This document shows positions 2 to 17,307 of a DNA stretch of 34,452 bases, one piece after another. Source of the stretch: a virus. Location: positions 1-34,452 of IMG/VR virus record IMGVR_UViG_3300020123_000163; one strand, 5' to 3'. The number at the start of each line of letters is the position of its first letter. Position 1 is the first letter of the stretch. Below the pieces are notes generated by a model. The model was not told where the DNA came from. It made no database searches and saw only the letters and a list, made by a program, of their open reading frames with translations. The position numbers were made by a program, and so were the translations under genes.

Positions 2-1282
2 CGTAGCGGCATAGTGGGGGTTCCCTGCAAGAAAGGTGGTTCATTTATAGGTGTTAGCGCATTTAGTGGCAGAAAGAATAAGCGTGTTGTCTTAATCGCA
101 GATGAGGGACAATTTATGCCGAGAGCTTATGTGGATGCAATTTCCAACCTAAACAAGAACACCAACTTCAAGTGTATTGTCTTGGGCAACCCAAAGGAAA
201 CCACCGATGCCCTGGGCATTGTTTGCGAGCCAGCCGCCGACCTTGGAGGTTGGGATGGTGGCATTGACCAGAACCCCAAAACCAAGACATGGCCGATTCG
301 TTTTCCCGATGGCATCTGCGTGCAGTTAGTGGGGAGCGATTCCCCCAATCTGGATGGCAAGCTGGGTATCCCGCTGATCAATCAGGAACAGATTGACGCG
401 GACATAAAGTTTTACGGCAAAGACTCACTCCAGTTCACGATGATGGATGAGGGGCGAATGCCGCGCGGTCAAGGATTACGACGAGTCATCACCCGCCAGT
501 TGTGCCTGAAGTTCCAGGCGATGGAGGAACCGATCTGGAAATCAGATCAGCGCACCAAGATATTCTTCATCGACGCAGCGTATGGACGTGTGGGCGGGGA
601 TCGGTGCATCGGCGGGGAACTTCAATTCGGACCGGGATTGGATAAGGAAGGCAATCTACGCCAGTTTTTGTCGTTGATTGATACCCTGCTCGTTCCGGTC
701 AGCGCATTGCTCTCTGAATTGCCAGAAGATCAAATCGTAAACTTCGTGAAGGCACAATGCGAGACCCGCAAGATCCCACCGGAAAATGTTTTCTTCGATT
801 CCACTGGACGCGGCTCATTGATGCAGGCTTTTGCCCGTCTTTGGTCAAACAAAGTTAATGGCGTCGAATTTGGTGGGAAAGCATCCGAGCGCAAGGTATC
901 CGGCCAGATTGATCTGATGTGCCGGGAATACTATTTCAACATGGTCTCGGAGCTTTGGTACACCGTCAGGTTGGTGATTGAGTCAGGACAGTTTCGCGGC
1001 ATGACCGAGGAAGTGATGATGGAAGGTTGCCAACGGGAATGGGGTCATGTCAGCGGGAACAAGATTCAAGTCGAACCGAAAGACGCCATGAAGGAAAAGA
1101 GTGGACGATCCCCCGACCTGTTCGACGGCTTGGTGGTGGGAGTGGAGGGTGCGCGTCGTTTGGGATTTGTCATTGAACGATTAGGAATTGCCAATAGTCC
1201 GTCGAACGACGCATGGAAAGAATTGCTGAAGCAGCGCCACTCCCGGTATCGCCCGCAACACCGTCTAAATTATTCCGTTTGA
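2..1282 (+). CDS. terL: Terminase large subunit, 5' truncated by window edge
   Basis: This is the ATP-driven DNA packaging motor and headful/cos nuclease that docks on the portal. The frame is open to the left edge, so the gene starts outside the window and its Walker A motif is missing; the GTG at 14 is internal. Counting from that GTG, the Walker B segment VVLIADEG lies at residues 25-32, followed by a coupling-type segment IVLGNP at 55-60. The C-terminal RNase H-like nuclease domain shows acidic residues in FFIDAAYG (D187), FFDSTGRG (D262) and the typical terminal segment SPDLFDGL (D368/D371). It heads the packaging gene block, with the portal about 6 kb downstream, which is unusually far. 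The assignment rests on motif order and context. Confidence 0.88.
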   Translation, partial: RSGIVGVPCKKGGSFIGVSAFSGRKNKRVVLIADEGQFMPRAYVDAISNLNKNTNFKCIVLGNPKETTDALGIVCEPAADLGGWDGGIDQNPKTKTWPIRFPDGICVQLVGSDSPNLDGKLGIPLINQEQIDADIKFYGKDSLQFTMMDEGRMPRGQGLRRVITRQLCLKFQAMEEPIWKSDQRTKIFFIDAAYGRVGGDRCIGGELQFGPGLDKEGNLRQFLSLIDTLLVPVSALLSELPEDQIVNFVKAQCETRKIPPENVFFDSTGRGSLMQAFARLWSNKVNGVEFGGKASERKVSGQIDLMCREYYFNMVSELWYTVRLVIESGQFRGMTEEVMMEGCQREWGHVSGNKIQVEPKDAMKEKSGRSPDLFDGLVVGVEGARRLGFVIERLGIANSPSNDAWKELLKQRHSRYRPQHRLNYSV

Positions 1283-7231: not shown

Positions 7232-7246
7232 TGTAATGGTGTGCCA

Positions 7247-9589
7247 ATGAGCGAAGCAAATGATTTCGATAATGCGCGTGTCGTGGAGTCCTGCGTTTGG
7301 CAGATGAAGTTGGCCGACTACCCGCGAGACCTGAACCGCGCGCGCATCGACCGGCTCTATAACGGTGAACCCCCTTACTCCGAGGAAGAAGAACGCGACA
7401 ACCAAATCGAGGTCAATGTCAACCCGCTTGGAGGCACCAAACTCGCCCATGATGCCCGCTCTCAATTAGCCAATGGCCTAATGAAGCCGGGGAAGTTTGC
7501 CAACGCTACCACCGATTACGGGCCAGTGCATAAACGGCAGGAATATTCCGCCATCGTCAGTAACGAATGGAATCGACCCATGAAACGGTCCCCGTTCTAT
7601 TGGGAAACCCTCCGTGGCAAGATCGCTCAAAACATTCTGCACGGCATCGCCCCTGCCGCCTGGGATGACCGCGATTGTTGGTGTCCTGATGATCTTGGGG
7701 TGGAAGACGTGATGATCCCCAGCGGAACCACGGTTAAAATGAAGAACCTGCCGTTCTTCGCCATCTGGCGATCGTGGACCGGGGCGCAACTGAAACGGTT
7801 CATCTCCGGCCCCAAAGTCGATAAGGCGTGGAACATTCCGTTAGTCAAAAAGCTGATTCAATGGGTGGATGCCGAGGCGGTCAAGACCATGGGAACAACT
7901 TGGGCGGAAGTCTGGTCCCCAACCAAGCAACAGGAACGGGAGAAGGGCGATGGCGCTCTTTATGCCGCAGATCAGGTAGCCACAATTGATGCGTGGGACT
8001 TCTATTTCTACGATCATAGCAAACGCGGCTCTGGCTGGAACCGGCGCGTGGTGCTGGACGCTTACGGTCAACCGGGAGTCAGTCCAGCCGGCGCACCGAT
8101 CCTAAACATGGGCAGTCATCGCTACGGTGACACCGGCAAAGGCGAGTTCCTTTATAACCCGGAAAAGCGCGTTTACGGGATGAAACGCAGCGAGATCATT
8201 TCCTTCCAATTCGCTGACCTATCCGCTGTCGCGCCCTTCCGTTATCATTCCGTTCGCAGCCTTGGCTATCTCATCTGGGCCATTTGCCATCTTCAAAACC
8301 GTCTGTTCTGCCGGATTCAGGAAGCGACCTTTGAGGGGTTGCTTCAGTATTTCCGGGTCAAATCCATGGAAGACGCGGAACGAGCGATCAAACTGGAATT
8401 GATCAATCGCGGGTTCATCGACGAAACGATCAACCCCATACAAGCCAGTGAACGCTGGCAACCGAACATCGCCTTGGCGCAATTCGCTTACGAGACCAAC
8501 GACCACATTATTGACGGCAACTCATCCAGCTTCGTCCAGAAACAGGAATATTCCCAAGGTTCAGAGCGCAAGACCAAGTTCCAGGTCGGGGCCGAACTGC
8601 AAGCCGCCACCCAATTAGTTTCCGCCGCTCTTTATCAGGTCTACAAATATCAGACGTTTGAGTATCAGGAGATTTTCCGACGCTTTATGCGGCGCAATTC
8701 CCGTGATGCTGATGTGCGGACTTTCCGGGCTAACTGTTTGCGCCAAGGTGTGCCGGAAAAGTTACTCGTAGCTGAAGCGTGGGATATTTCAGCAGAACAG
8801 GTGCTGGGGTCGGGTAATAAAACTTTGGAGATGGCCATTGCCCAACAGCTTTTGGAGATGCGAAATCTTTATGACCCCGAACCGCAACGAAAGATCCTGC
8901 GTGATGTAACTCTGGCAGTTACAGATAATGCGGCACGCACCGAAGAACTAGTGCCGGAACAGCCAGTGAAGGTAACGGACTCGGTGCATGACGCGCAGTT
9001 GGCAGCGGGTGCCTTGATGATGGGTTTGCCTGTGGCTCTAAAACTAGGGATCAATCACATCGAAGTCACCGAAACACTATTAGGCGTGATGCAGACCGTC
9101 ATTCAGAAGATTGAGAAGCGTGGAGCGATGGCCACGGAGGAAGAAATTGTTGGGCTGACCAACGTGGCGAACCATATCGAGCAACACATCCAGATCATCG
9201 GACAGGATGAGGAAGAAAAAGAGCGGGTCAAAAAGTATGGAGACGTTCTCGGAGGATTTTTAAATCAAATAAAAGGTTATGCACAAAGGCTCGGTGAACA
9301 GCGACGTAAACAGCAACAGCAAAATGGAGACATAGACGCCGAAACAAAAACTAAACTTCAAGCTCAACTGATTTTAGCGCAAGCGAAGGCATCAAACGCC
9401 AAGGAAAGTCATGCTCAAAAAACCGCCCAGCGGCAAGTGTCGTTTGATTTAAAACAGCAACAAGACGCTCAATCGCATTCACTTGAGCAGCAGAAAAAAT
9501 TAGCAGAGTTGAAAACTAACATTCAGGCCGAAGACCTTAAAACATCAGCAGAAATTCGGAGAAACCGTTTAAAGAGTCTCTCCGAATAG
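7247..9589 (+). CDS. Portal protein
   Basis: A 780-residue protein predicted to form the dodecameric portal at the capsid vertex through which terminase drives DNA. Evidence is its size (typical of podovirus-type portals of about 700-800), position in the packaging block and segments such as RIDRLYNGE...VNVNPLGGTKLAHDARSQLANGLMKPGK near the N-terminus, the central YRYHSVRSLGYLIWAICHLQNRLF-like helical region around 325-350, and a QEY..GSERKT.FQVGAELQAATQL stretch. The last ~140 residues are Gln/Lys/Glu-rich and probably coiled-coil, like portal barrel helices. I prefer ATG 7247 (MSEANDF) over GTG 7241. Right after its stop the 5-base periodic tract begins. Confidence 0.8.
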   Translation: MSEANDFDNARVVESCVWQMKLADYPRDLNRARIDRLYNGEPPYSEEEERDNQIEVNVNPLGGTKLAHDARSQLANGLMKPGKFANATTDYGPVHKRQEYSAIVSNEWNRPMKRSPFYWETLRGKIAQNILHGIAPAAWDDRDCWCPDDLGVEDVMIPSGTTVKMKNLPFFAIWRSWTGAQLKRFISGPKVDKAWNIPLVKKLIQWVDAEAVKTMGTTWAEVWSPTKQQEREKGDGALYAADQVATIDAWDFYFYDHSKRGSGWNRRVVLDAYGQPGVSPAGAPILNMGSHRYGDTGKGEFLYNPEKRVYGMKRSEIISFQFADLSAVAPFRYHSVRSLGYLIWAICHLQNRLFCRIQEATFEGLLQYFRVKSMEDAERAIKLELINRGFIDETINPIQASERWQPNIALAQFAYETNDHIIDGNSSSFVQKQEYSQGSERKTKFQVGAELQAATQLVSAALYQVYKYQTFEYQEIFRRFMRRNSRDADVRTFRANCLRQGVPEKLLVAEAWDISAEQVLGSGNKTLEMAIAQQLLEMRNLYDPEPQRKILRDVTLAVTDNAARTEELVPEQPVKVTDSVHDAQLAAGALMMGLPVALKLGINHIEVTETLLGVMQTVIQKIEKRGAMATEEEIVGLTNVANHIEQHIQIIGQDEEEKERVKKYGDVLGGFLNQIKGYAQRLGEQRRKQQQQNGDIDAETKTKLQAQLILAQAKASNAKESHAQKTAQRQVSFDLKQQQDAQSHSLEQQKKLAELKTNIQAEDLKTSAEIRRNRLKSLSE

Positions 9590-10233
9590 CCTGCCATTCC
9601 TGTCTGAACACAACCGTACCATTACGGATCGTAACGGACCAAACCAAACCACGCACTACCTGCATTTCCATACCAAACCTAACCTGTCCCCGCCATTCTT
9701 CGACTGACCGCGCCATACCGTTCCAAGCCTGCCCTCCGCACCTCTCATGGCCATGCATCCCCGCACCGCACCTTCCCTCACCATGCCTGCCACGCCAAAC
9801 CGAACCTCTCCGAACAACGCCGAACCGTCCGAGACGTTCCGATCCCCGCCTGCTTCGCCATTCCTTGCATCACCCCACAATGGCAATCCATCCCGCGCCA
9901 TCCCTCACCGCGCCTCACCTGCCAAACCATTTCTAGCCCCACTAGACCTGCCCTCACCATCCTCACTATTTCGTTCCAATCCCAACCTTGCCTGCCACGC
10001 ATTCCCCAACCGTACCACGCGATTCCTTGCCGCACCTTGGCCCACCTTGCCTGCAATGCCACAACAAACCACCACGGGCCTTAGCACAACTTGCCTTTCC
10101 ACACCTGCCATATCGAAACATGCCCTACCAGACCTAACCAGTCCGAACCAATCCGCACGGCACCAAACCGCACCTTGCCTGCCGTAATTTACCTAACCTA
10201 ACCGCACCAATCCTTGCCAGAACCTTCCACAAA
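9590..10233 (+). repeat. Degenerate pentanucleotide tract, CCNNN on + / GGNNN on -
   Basis: About 640 bp without a credible gene between the portal gene and two leftward genes. The + strand is C-rich and G-poor, with CC (or single C) recurring every 5 bases over long runs, for example aaacc-aaacc at 9651-9660 and accta-accta-accgc near 10191-10205, with occasional phase slips. The - strand reads GG every 5 bases, so 4 successive GG pairs with 3-base loops occur again and again. Because the period lacks stops, all three - frames are open for 60-95 codons (Gly/Arg/Trp/Val-rich), which I regard as artefacts. The role is unknown: candidates are a G-quadruplex-forming 3' UTR, a recombination or packaging site, or a replication signal. 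Confidence 0.85.
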
Positions 10234-10659
10234 TCAGGCAGCTTTTTTAACTTTCTTAATTGCGCTAAACACCTCTGCTAGTTGCCTTAATTCCCGATAC
10301 TTTCGGGTAAAGGCATTCAGTTCAGCCAGTGCATCCTTAAGCAACTGATCGCGCATTGCGGCATCAGCCATCACTTCGGACATAACTCGATAGCCGCCAC
10401 CTCTCTGAACCCGATCAGGAGTCAATGAAACAAAGACTGGCGCTTCAACTCCATCTCCCATCACCTGAACCGTGACGCGAATCAGAGTGCGGGCCTCCAT
10501 CAATCGCCATTGTTCCGCCGCCTCGGTATTGTCCCAAGTGAACCGTGAATGTAATACATGTTTGGGATTGCGAGCTTCTTCTACTACATCTTCAGGCCGC
10601 AGAATGCCATTCTTTGCGGCAATCGCCCTTAATGCTTTTTCAACTGTTTCGTTTTTCAT
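10234..10659 (-). CDS. Conserved phage hypothetical protein
   Basis: A 141-residue leftward gene starting at the ATG at 10659 (MKNETVEKAL). It has an N-terminal segment with AIAAKNGILRPEDVVEEARNP, then LHSRFTWDNTEAAEQWRLMEARTLIR. I recognise this 'P..VV..A+.P.HPLH..F.WD...AA..YR..QAR.LI' layout from small proteins in many phages, with no known function. The C-terminus (LNAFTRKYRELRQLAEVFSAIKKVKK) is helical and basic. It follows the 10662-11348 gene by 2 bases, in one leftward transcript that would run into the GGNNN tract. Confidence 0.72.
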   Translation of the reverse strand: MKNETVEKALRAIAAKNGILRPEDVVEEARNPKHVLHSRFTWDNTEAAEQWRLMEARTLIRVTVQVMGDGVEAPVFVSLTPDRVQRGGGYRVMSEVMADAAMRDQLLKDALAELNAFTRKYRELRQLAEVFSAIKKVKKAA

Positions 10660-15194: not shown

Positions 15195-15460
15195 AAACAA
15201 ACGGCAAACATCTCAATGAACAGTCAGTGCTCTTGGCCAACCAGAAGAAGCACATCAACTCGCTCAATCGGCTCATCTGGATTTTGATCCGTCAGGCAGG
15301 CGGGGAAGTCAGGGTGTCGCATCGAGACATGGCGCTCATCCCCGATAAATGGAATTTCTCCATCGCACCTGACCCCAATAAGCCCGAAGAAATCGTGTTC
15401 AAAGCGACTGATGGCCCGCAAGAAGCGCAACAGGCCGCGATGCAGGCGGAGAAGAATTAA
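15191..15460 (+). CDS. Small hypothetical protein before the capsid gene
   Basis: An 89-residue protein with an N-terminal helix (QSVLLANQKKHINSLNRLIWILIRQAGGEVRV), then SHRDMALIPDKWNF and a Gln/Ala-rich tail (PQEAQQAAMQAEKN). I recognise no family with certainty. Small proteins of this layout often sit just before phage capsid genes. It ends 2 bases before the TTGACA of the capsid promoter. Confidence 0.6.
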   Translation: MKTNGKHLNEQSVLLANQKKHINSLNRLIWILIRQAGGEVRVSHRDMALIPDKWNFSIAPDPNKPEEIVFKATDGPQEAQQAAMQAEKN

Positions 15461-15461
15461 G

Positions 15462-15490
15462 TTGACAAACTAAATCTAGTATTCTAAAGG
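15462..15490 (+). promoter_or_regulatory. Probable capsid gene promoter
   Basis: A perfect -35 TTGACA at 15462-15467. At 17-base spacing the -10 would be TAAAGG (15485-15490), which is weak; TATTCT at 15480-15485 is a better match but only 12 bases away. Transcription from either would begin at or just before the hairpin chain at 15497. Confidence 0.4.
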
Positions 15491-15496
15491 AGCACT

Positions 15497-15584
15497 GTCA
15501 GTAAGCTTGTGGGCCTGACCTAAACTCGCCCTTTCAAGTCCGAGTGAGACCGCATAGGCGGTCTTTCCCTCAGCGGTGAGGGAA
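15497..15584 (+). ncRNA. Four-hairpin structured leader of the capsid gene
   Basis: Four stem-loops in close succession: GTCAG/CTGAC (15497-15519, 13-base loop), ACTCG/CGAGT (15524-15545, 12-base loop), AGACCGC/GCGGTCT (15547-15564, ATAG loop) and TTCCCTC/GAGGGAA (15565-15584, AGCGGT loop). The last two are perfect 7-bp stems abutting with no gap. About 100 further bases precede the capsid start. It could be a translation or stability element, a processing site or a small RNA. I match it to no known RNA family. Confidence 0.55.
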
Positions 15585-15687
15585 TGGAAGAGATTCTCGG
15601 CTTCTACAAAACACCCAACAGACGAATCACGATCCGCGTGTGCGTTGTTGTGTATTCGCCTAAAACAAACATTAGATAAACTAATTT

Positions 15688-17307
15688 ATGGCAGGCGACA
15701 TTATAAGTTGTGACAAATTTCCGCAATACCTCGTAGACCAGCAGCCGTATTTCGACGAAATGATCCTTGAGGACATTCGGCCAACTGACGGATGGCTCGG
15801 TAATATTTCACTCGGCCAAATGCCCACAGGGACTCCCACCGAAGTCACGCAAGACCGATTCAAGCACGTTTATCCTAACACCACCAAGACCTGGGTGAAG
15901 ACGCAGGCCGGTTCGTGTCTGGGAACACCGTGCGACAAGAAAGAATATTGCATCGGCTGGGGTGCGGAACGAATCCATTACTTTGCCGAGGAACAAAGCT
16001 GGCAGACACCGCTGTTGTGCTACGACCAGGACATGCACATCACGCACGCGGAGGAACACTTGGCGTACATCATCAGTGATTTGCTTCGGCCCGCCACGAA
16101 CGAGATTTCCAGCACGTTCTTGCGGAAACGGGCGTTGTTCTGGTCGAAGAAGAAATGGCAGGCCAACAAGACCCAAGACGATTTCACCTTTGAATGGACC
16201 CTGGGCGCTACCGCAGGCGACGAAGAAGTGTATTTCGATTGCTCATGCGATCCGGCCAAGGTGTTCCTGCTCACCCCGCAAATGCTTCAGCGACGGTTCG
16301 CGCCCTTGATGCGGCTGGGTTACGCGGGCAAGAATCCGTTCAAAGATACCGTGGCTTACATTGAGTTGGTCACGGACATGGACACCCTCTGGAACCTCGA
16401 CCATTTGGGCGGTCAGGTCGGCGTGGGCGGCGTGCCATCAGTCAGTGGAAACTGGCGCTTTGAACAGTGGGACGCGGCCAACAGCTATTGGCGGTACGGC
16501 TTCAACGGGCGCATTGGCAATTACCTGGCGCGCGCCGATGAGAGCGGGTTGCGCTTCAACTACGTCGGAAAAACCGGCGCGGCAGTGCAGAACGCCAACA
16601 ACGTGTTCCGCTATCAGGTGGTGTTGCCTTATGTCAACAAGACCACTTCGGGCGCGGGCGGGGCAGCGGGTCTGGGGTCCGACGAGAATGAGGACTTCGA
16701 GAAAGCACACTTCACCATCAGCTACATCTGCCACAAGAAAGGGATGCAGCTATTGACCATGAACGCCACGCCGATCAGTTCCGAGATGCCGTTTTCGGCG
16801 CGGGATTTTGGCGGCAAATGGCAGTTCGTGATGGACAACCTTGGGACGGACGTGAACGGGTGCGTCATCGAAAACAAGCGGCGGAACAAAGGGCAATTCA
16901 TCGCTGACTTCAAGTATTACATCAGACCCCTGCACACCGAGTTCATGGAAGCGATTTTCCACAAGCGCGAACCGATTTGCGTGGCGGAAATTGATACCTG
17001 CTCGTCTGACCCTGGATACCCTACGCAAAACTACAATTCCTGCAATGACGCCTGCCCGGTCAGCGGCACGCTCACCTTCACCCCGGTCAAACGGGAACTG
17101 ACGGGAACATACGAGATCGCTGCCGATACGATTCTGTGCGACGGCTCGCCTGTCGGACACGATGCGATCACCGGGAGCACATCACTGGCGGCTTTAGTCG
17201 CGCAACTGAACGCCAAGGTTCCTTCGATGGGAACTTGGGCCGTCAGTGCGAGCAACATTACCCTGGTCGGTAGTTGCGGCGTGGCCGTGGTGCCATTTGA
17301 AGCGTAA
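15688..17307 (+). CDS. Major capsid protein
   Basis: A 539-residue protein inferred to be the major head subunit. It follows the scaffold gene, has its own promoter and structured leader, and contains domain-like blocks such as LRPATNEISSTFLRKRALF (133-151) and TPISSEMPFSARDFGGKWQFVMDN (361-384) that read as phage capsid/virion folds. Residues ~455-539 form an extra C-terminal beta-rich domain (GTLTFTPVKREL onward). The protein has 15 cysteines, clustered at 77-88, 185-187 and 431-456, which is high for a capsid protein and suggests disulfides or metal sites. The start ATG has an A/T-rich ATTTATG context and no Shine-Dalgarno sequence. Confidence 0.75.
   Translation: MAGDIISCDKFPQYLVDQQPYFDEMILEDIRPTDGWLGNISLGQMPTGTPTEVTQDRFKHVYPNTTKTWVKTQAGSCLGTPCDKKEYCIGWGAERIHYFAEEQSWQTPLLCYDQDMHITHAEEHLAYIISDLLRPATNEISSTFLRKRALFWSKKKWQANKTQDDFTFEWTLGATAGDEEVYFDCSCDPAKVFLLTPQMLQRRFAPLMRLGYAGKNPFKDTVAYIELVTDMDTLWNLDHLGGQVGVGGVPSVSGNWRFEQWDAANSYWRYGFNGRIGNYLARADESGLRFNYVGKTGAAVQNANNVFRYQVVLPYVNKTTSGAGGAAGLGSDENEDFEKAHFTISYICHKKGMQLLTMNATPISSEMPFSARDFGGKWQFVMDNLGTDVNGCVIENKRRNKGQFIADFKYYIRPLHTEFMEAIFHKREPICVAEIDTCSSDPGYPTQNYNSCNDACPVSGTLTFTPVKRELTGTYEIAADTILCDGSPVGHDAITGSTSLAALVAQLNAKVPSMGTWAVSASNITLVGSCGVAVVPFEA

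Follow-up and report, generated by a model that had tools for sequence, protein, structure and literature searches.

Computational analysis of the leader ahead of the capsid gene, in the window (the whole virus record, 34.5 kb) and in related phages, shows a promoter, RNA structure, covariation, specificity for the capsid start and a higher predicted cost of opening that start. We favor, with moderate confidence, the reading that this leader gates capsid synthesis by RNA folding over the start region and that its hairpins protect the message against degradation as well; the phage thus probably controls production of its shell protein through RNA folding.

Capsid gene, promoter and hairpin chain

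In the window, an 89-aa gene stops at 15458-15460 and, 227 bases on, a 539-aa gene begins with ATG at 15688. The 539-aa protein had no match in PHROG or Pfam. An AlphaFold2 model built from 39 relatives (mean pLDDT 72, pTM 0.64) has as its best structural matches the HK97-fold coats of Moo19 and N4 (Z 15.6 and 15.2, over 288 and 282 residues), and its BFVD matches are major capsid proteins; going by the model, the product is an HK97-fold capsid protein. No relative of this protein was found among INPHARED/GenBank phages, and an INPHARED DNA search with the leader gave no match. An IMG/VR search with the capsid protein returned 80 loci at 38-66% identity, and more were added via one distant member. 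These relatives, a large family, are uncultivated soil phages, and the comparison set comprised 70 capsid leaders, window included, after removal of leaders at least 75% identical. A 7.4-kb contig (L082, JAQGOT010000011.1) in a Pedosphaera (Verrucomicrobiota) MAG also has a related capsid gene, whose start is covered by a CATAAAATCG/CGATTTTATG helix, a hint that the hosts are Verrucomicrobiota.

The features discussed below are as follows:

15462..15490, + strand: predicted sigma-70-type promoter, with -35 TTGACA (15462-15467), 17-nt spacer and -10 TAAAGG (15485-15490); layout common to the relatives
15497..15519, + strand: hairpin 1, GTCAG/CTGAC, 5 bp with a 13-nt loop, at the predicted transcript 5' end; position covarying in relatives
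15524..15545, + strand: hairpin 2, ACTCG/CGAGT, 5 bp; ensemble p 0.98
15547..15564, + strand: hairpin 3, AGACCGC-ATAG-GCGGTCT, perfect 7 bp; ensemble p 0.94
15565..15584, + strand: hairpin 4, TTCCCTC-AGCGGT-GAGGGAA, perfect 7 bp; ensemble p 0.90
15585..15606, + strand: hairpin 5, TGGAAG/CTTCTA, which uses part of the conserved arm; ensemble p 0.87
15599..15614, + strand: conserved upstream arm GGCTTCTACAAAACAC, which in relatives forms the 5' side of the start-adjacent helix; CTTC invariant in the nearest-leader alignment, window included
15622..15658, + strand: inner hairpin of the start-adjacent domain, CGAAT/ATTCG plus CACGAT/GTTGTG, tip CGC-GTGT-GCG; ensemble p 0.83-0.87
15671..15685, + strand: small hairpin ATTAG/CTAAT just before the capsid ATG; ensemble p 0.62
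15688..17307, + strand: capsid gene, 539 aa, HK97 fold by AlphaFold2 model and structure matches, nearest to phage N4-like coat proteins

The TTGACA that the original prediction placed between the preceding stop and the capsid start is present at 15462-15467. The relatives share the layout TTGACA-17-TA(A/G)AA, with the 17-nt distance to a TA-rich -10 nearly always kept, and TTGACN lies at -300..-90 from the capsid ATG in 63 of 70 leaders, against a chance expectation of 22%. Judged by these motifs, a promoter ahead of the capsid gene is conserved among the 70 leaders. With TAAAGG at 15485-15490 as the -10, the transcript would begin at about 15497, the first base of hairpin 1, which is the predicted transcription start site (TSS) in the window. 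A generic TTGACA/TATAAT scan of the window did not call the capsid promoter, because its -10 departs from TATAAT. In three relatives (L001, L016 and L068) the capsid gene is extended in frame at its N-terminal end, upstream of the start, and a promoter of the usual type was not called for L001 and L016; such extensions are possibly an alternative way of controlling the capsid gene.

The original prediction described four stem-loops before the capsid gene, and all four were found where it had put them, with one base between hairpins 2 and 3, none between hairpins 3 and 4, and perfect 7-bp stems in the last two. Folding adds structure beyond these at 15585-15606, 15622-15658 and 15671-15685. The leader with 15 nt of the gene folds at -63.9 kcal/mol vs -53.1 +/- 4.4 for dinucleotide shuffles (z = -2.45, 2 of 200 as good). 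The leader alone gives z = -2.9; values above +1 were obtained for both the upstream region and the beginning of the gene. Hairpin 1 is the weakest of hairpins 1-4; when the fold takes in 30 nt of the gene, 15692-15714 becomes the preferred partner of the 5' end. The view that the leader belongs to no known RNA family was borne out by Rfam: none of the Rfam 15 covariance models scored above its gathering threshold in the window or 12 relatives, and a relaxed search gave only a chance CRISPR-repeat match on the other strand (E = 0.97).

A 31-codon frame (MEEILGFYKTPNRRITIRVCVVVYSPKTNIR, 15584-15680) overlaps the 3' part of the leader and by eye starts at hairpin 4. It is probably a chance frame, because the corresponding site in L002 carries an early stop.

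Elsewhere in the window, 2589-2666 holds a tRNA-like gene (Rfam tRNA, 39.7 bits) that overlaps the 3' end of the reading frame before it; its anticodon loop lacks one base, and ARAGORN accordingly assigns it a two-base anticodon and no amino acid. At 9590-10250, following a 782-aa frame (7241-9589, portal-like by position), ~650 bases are strongly C-rich and G-poor on the + strand; they show irregular CC-rich repetition, and no tandem repeat was detected.

Covariation and the start-adjacent helix

MAFFT and RNAalifold gave no consensus structure for the start domain because leader lengths vary, and alignment-free tests were therefore used instead of a covariance model. Between related leaders, 11.5% of changed pairs in predicted helices are compensated vs 4.7% at random Watson-Crick positions (bootstrap of the difference 2.9 to 14.3 points, 18 clusters). 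The leaders contain 171 stems of at least five pure Watson-Crick pairs vs 67 +/- 4 when shuffled; the same count in the region upstream of the leaders is 78 vs 61. Against block-shuffled sequence, hairpin cover shows no difference before the predicted TSS and is raised 1.4 to 2.4 times after it, and this restriction of the excess to downstream positions ties the hairpins to the transcript.

Covariation was found at several hairpin positions. The position of hairpin 1 covaries in relatives (TSS -4..12 x 12..28, t = -4.3), and its cognate pairing test gave Z = -5.8 with a reversed control that was itself not null, at -3.3. Hairpins at about the same distance before the conserved arm as hairpin 3 covary (-70..-56 x -56..-42, t = -3.3), as do the counterparts of hairpin 4 (-35..-21 x -21..-7, t = -3.9). 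The hairpin 4 loop, AGC(A/G)GT, recurs on different stems, namely GCCC-AGCGGT-GGGC in L024 and L056 and GGCC-AGCAGT-GGCC in L046 and L048. Relative to the ATG, the strongest covariation region is the site of the inner hairpin, 15622-15658 (-76..-52 x -52..-28, t = -4.7). A strand test by G-T vs A-C changes was rejected: the first count, 469:315, pointed to the RNA strand but included duplicate loci, and after their removal the preference of G-U over A-C was not significant (1.19 vs 1.00), so that the RNA-strand signal was lost. Assignment of the strand of action rests on the promoter and transcript landmarks.

In many relatives, the stretch that runs up to the capsid ATG has its complement in an arm ~40-110 nt upstream. 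The 3' arm of this helix consists of the bases just before the ATG, sometimes with the ATG included, and the helix, ~10-15 bp and directly before the ATG, encloses the inner hairpin. Pairing was scored without alignment by setting the -130..-36 region of each leader against its own -24..+3 segment and those of other leaders. Own partners gave -12.95 kcal/mol vs -10.43 +/- 0.29 for permuted ones (Z = -8.8; 70 leaders, <75% identity), and controls with a reversed segment, the gene interior and further-upstream regions were null. The helix and its enclosed hairpin were recovered de novo in scans of all segment pairs anchored on the ATG or on the arm. At 250 other gene starts of the same loci the test found no such signal (t = -0.39). 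Taken singly, 17 of 70 leaders are significant at p <= 0.05 (3.5 expected) and 10 of 70 at 0.01. The arms differ between lineages yet still match, as in GGTTCTAAAAAC/GTTTTTAGAACC (L045) and ACTCCTAAAAGT/ACTTTTAGCGAGT (L031); in L052 (CCATAAAATCG/CGATTTTATGG) and L064 they contain the ATG.

The check that the original prediction had proposed, compensatory changes in related capsid leaders, thus came out, together with the pairing tests, in favor of a conserved, structured leader. Conservation is strongest in the long-range domain that ends at the start codon, 3' of the four-hairpin chain that it had described.

Capsid leaders contain 21 copies of the strict upstream-arm motif CTTC[AT]?AAAA where 0.23 would be expected, and another 22 lie elsewhere in 867 kb; the arm of the window has TAC and does not match the motif. 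An exact DNA search of viral contigs with the window's arm returned four loci, all unrelated. The arm was rejected as a general late promoter, as the motif is specific to capsid leaders and is not repeated elsewhere, and by eye L002 has no TTGACA 17 nt before the arm; a phage promoter of an unfamiliar type may nevertheless lie there. A two-state switch, in which the arm pairs with the upstream GAAG to form hairpin 5, was likewise rejected (t = 0.76 for 60 nt and -0.70 for 30 nt).

The window itself (L081) carries a modified version of this leader. It keeps the promoter, the hairpin chain, the upstream arm (15599-15614) and the inner hairpin (15622-15658), and lacks the 3' arm: no segment before its ATG matches the upstream arm (p = 0.93). 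The small hairpin at 15671-15685 stands in place of the long-range helix of the relatives. With no matching 3' arm, the window leader appears to be a derived or decayed version of the family leader. Its 5' end (15497-15517) is complementary to 15692-15714, which covers capsid codons 2-9, and this pairing competes with hairpin 1; noticed post hoc, it scores -20.3 kcal/mol vs -10.2 for shuffled sequence (0.25% as good). As a conserved helix it was rejected, being strong only in the window and not conserved in relatives (Z = -0.3). In the window, loss of the 3' arm may leave the capsid start more open, or pairing with the leader's 5' end may mask codons 2-9.

Start-site opening and the role of the leader

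The predicted cost of opening the capsid start is 10.9 kcal/mol vs 7.6 at GC-matched other starts, figures for the latter being blurred because the first ATG of each frame was taken as its start. This definition applies equally to the long-range share of the cost, 4.4 kcal/mol at capsid genes vs 0.9 at other genes (p ~1e-15) or 1.0 after GC matching (p ~5e-10), and to local opening around the ATG, which is easier at the capsid gene (6.5 vs 8.2 kcal/mol).

A Shine-Dalgarno (SD) sequence is missing at the capsid ATG, as originally reported, and SD-like motifs were found in 0 of 70 capsid genes. This absence says nothing about the role of the leader: across these phages only 27 of 315 genes (9%) have SD-like motifs, vs 6% in shuffled sequence, so their lack is not peculiar to the capsid gene. 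Some Verrucomicrobiota have been reported to be SD-scarce (PMC10783764).

Under the gating reading, the leader would be the 5' untranslated region of a capsid mRNA transcribed from a promoter of its own. It would be a conserved structured RNA that evolves fast, with a chain of short hairpins running from the predicted 5' end to the start domain. There, an arm of the CTTC-WAAAAC type would reach across the inner hairpin to pair with the bases immediately preceding the ATG. In genes without an SD the ribosome would need an open, A/U-rich start region, and as the helix covers that region, translation would begin only once the domain opens. We infer that the leader is transcribed, that its folding represses capsid translation, that a trigger (a factor or condition) relieves the repression and that the hairpins protect the capsid mRNA from decay. 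Of the three roles originally suggested (stability, processing and translation), translation appears the best supported by the comparative evidence. Against gating, a repressing helix is odd on a gene whose product is needed in large amounts, unless some mechanism releases it.

The chain of hairpins would also suit a leader that mainly stabilizes the capsid mRNA, its 5'-terminal hairpin and chain blocking 5'-end-dependent decay and the start helix being secondary. Hairpins begin at the predicted TSS and run through the leader, the position of the 5'-terminal hairpin covaries, and the window retains the chain despite loss of the start-adjacent helix. We nevertheless judge this explanation unlikely, as covariation is strongest at the start codon rather than at the 5' end and the 5'-terminal test has a reversed control that is not null (Z = -3.3 vs -5.8). 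Nor does it seem at all probable that the start-adjacent helix is a processing site, where a cut by RNase III or a phage nuclease would leave a short-leader or leaderless mRNA for SD-free translation. Usual RNase III substrates are longer than many of these helices, and many are interrupted; a helix of ~10-15 bp directly before the ATG, with its enclosed hairpin, and the SD-free genes themselves would fit such processing.

Because structure is fixed to transcript landmarks, with the hairpin excess only after the predicted TSS and the helix ending at the ATG, and because the promoter is conserved, we consider it very improbable that the leader is a DNA-level element (a packaging or replication site, or protein-binding inverted repeats) lying before the capsid gene by chance, an explanation with which the lack of a significant G-U vs A-C strand bias after duplicate removal would agree. 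We give hardly any credence to ordinary intergenic hairpins combined with a terminator of the preceding gene and no capsid function. Hairpin 3 is followed by TTT, in the window alone, but an intrinsic terminator scan of 15462-15687 called no terminator-like site with a G+C-rich stem and T run, and such hairpins would not account for the covariation and capsid-start specificity in the relatives.

Known systems and significance

The closest parallel on record is found in T4 genes e, soc, 49 and I-TevI, in which a helix covers the translation initiation region and late transcripts, whose promoter lies in the 5' arm, escape it (PMC3014915). As in those genes, the start of a single gene is covered by a helix in phage mRNA that related phages have conserved; this helix was found in the relatives as a group (Z = -8.8) and is absent in the window. 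Unlike the T4 e leaders, the leader studied here is longer and multi-hairpin, precedes a capsid gene without an SD, and has its recognized promoter upstream of the whole structure. With the promoter in that position, and the arm motif not a repeated promoter motif, release would probably differ from that of T4 e. The operators of T4 genes 32 and 43, which exert autogenous control through structured RNA near the gene start (PMC3014915), likewise lie just upstream of a phage gene start; here, in contrast, any binding protein would be hypothetical. As the arms vary in sequence, such a protein would have to recognize their shape or else the conserved segments CTTC-AAAAC and AGCGGT.

Bacterial mRNAs of the ompA type have stable leaders with a 5' hairpin. 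The leader resembles them in its hairpin, which lies at the predicted 5' end or close to it, and differs in having its main conserved element at the start codon. Comparative screens have described the phage-associated structured RNAs manA, wcaG and c4 antisense, in a paper that does not mention capsid (PMC2864571). Like these motifs, the leader is a conserved structured RNA in phages, and by Rfam none of them matches it.

In tailed phages, capsid protein is needed in bulk and in step with scaffold and portal. A wider proposal, which we hold as doubtful, is that the leader is a capsid-specific RNA device conserved in uncultivated phages, probably of Verrucomicrobiota, with N4-like HK97-fold capsids, and that in the absence of an SD it would keep capsid translation off until an assembly factor, the capsid protein or a host state frees the start codon. 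Distant relatives carry the element at the capsid start in differing sequences; it is absent from Rfam and is testable by simple reporters. If gating is true, RNA folding would set the timing of capsid synthesis in phages without Shine-Dalgarno sequences, and the element at the capsid start would be direct evidence of it.
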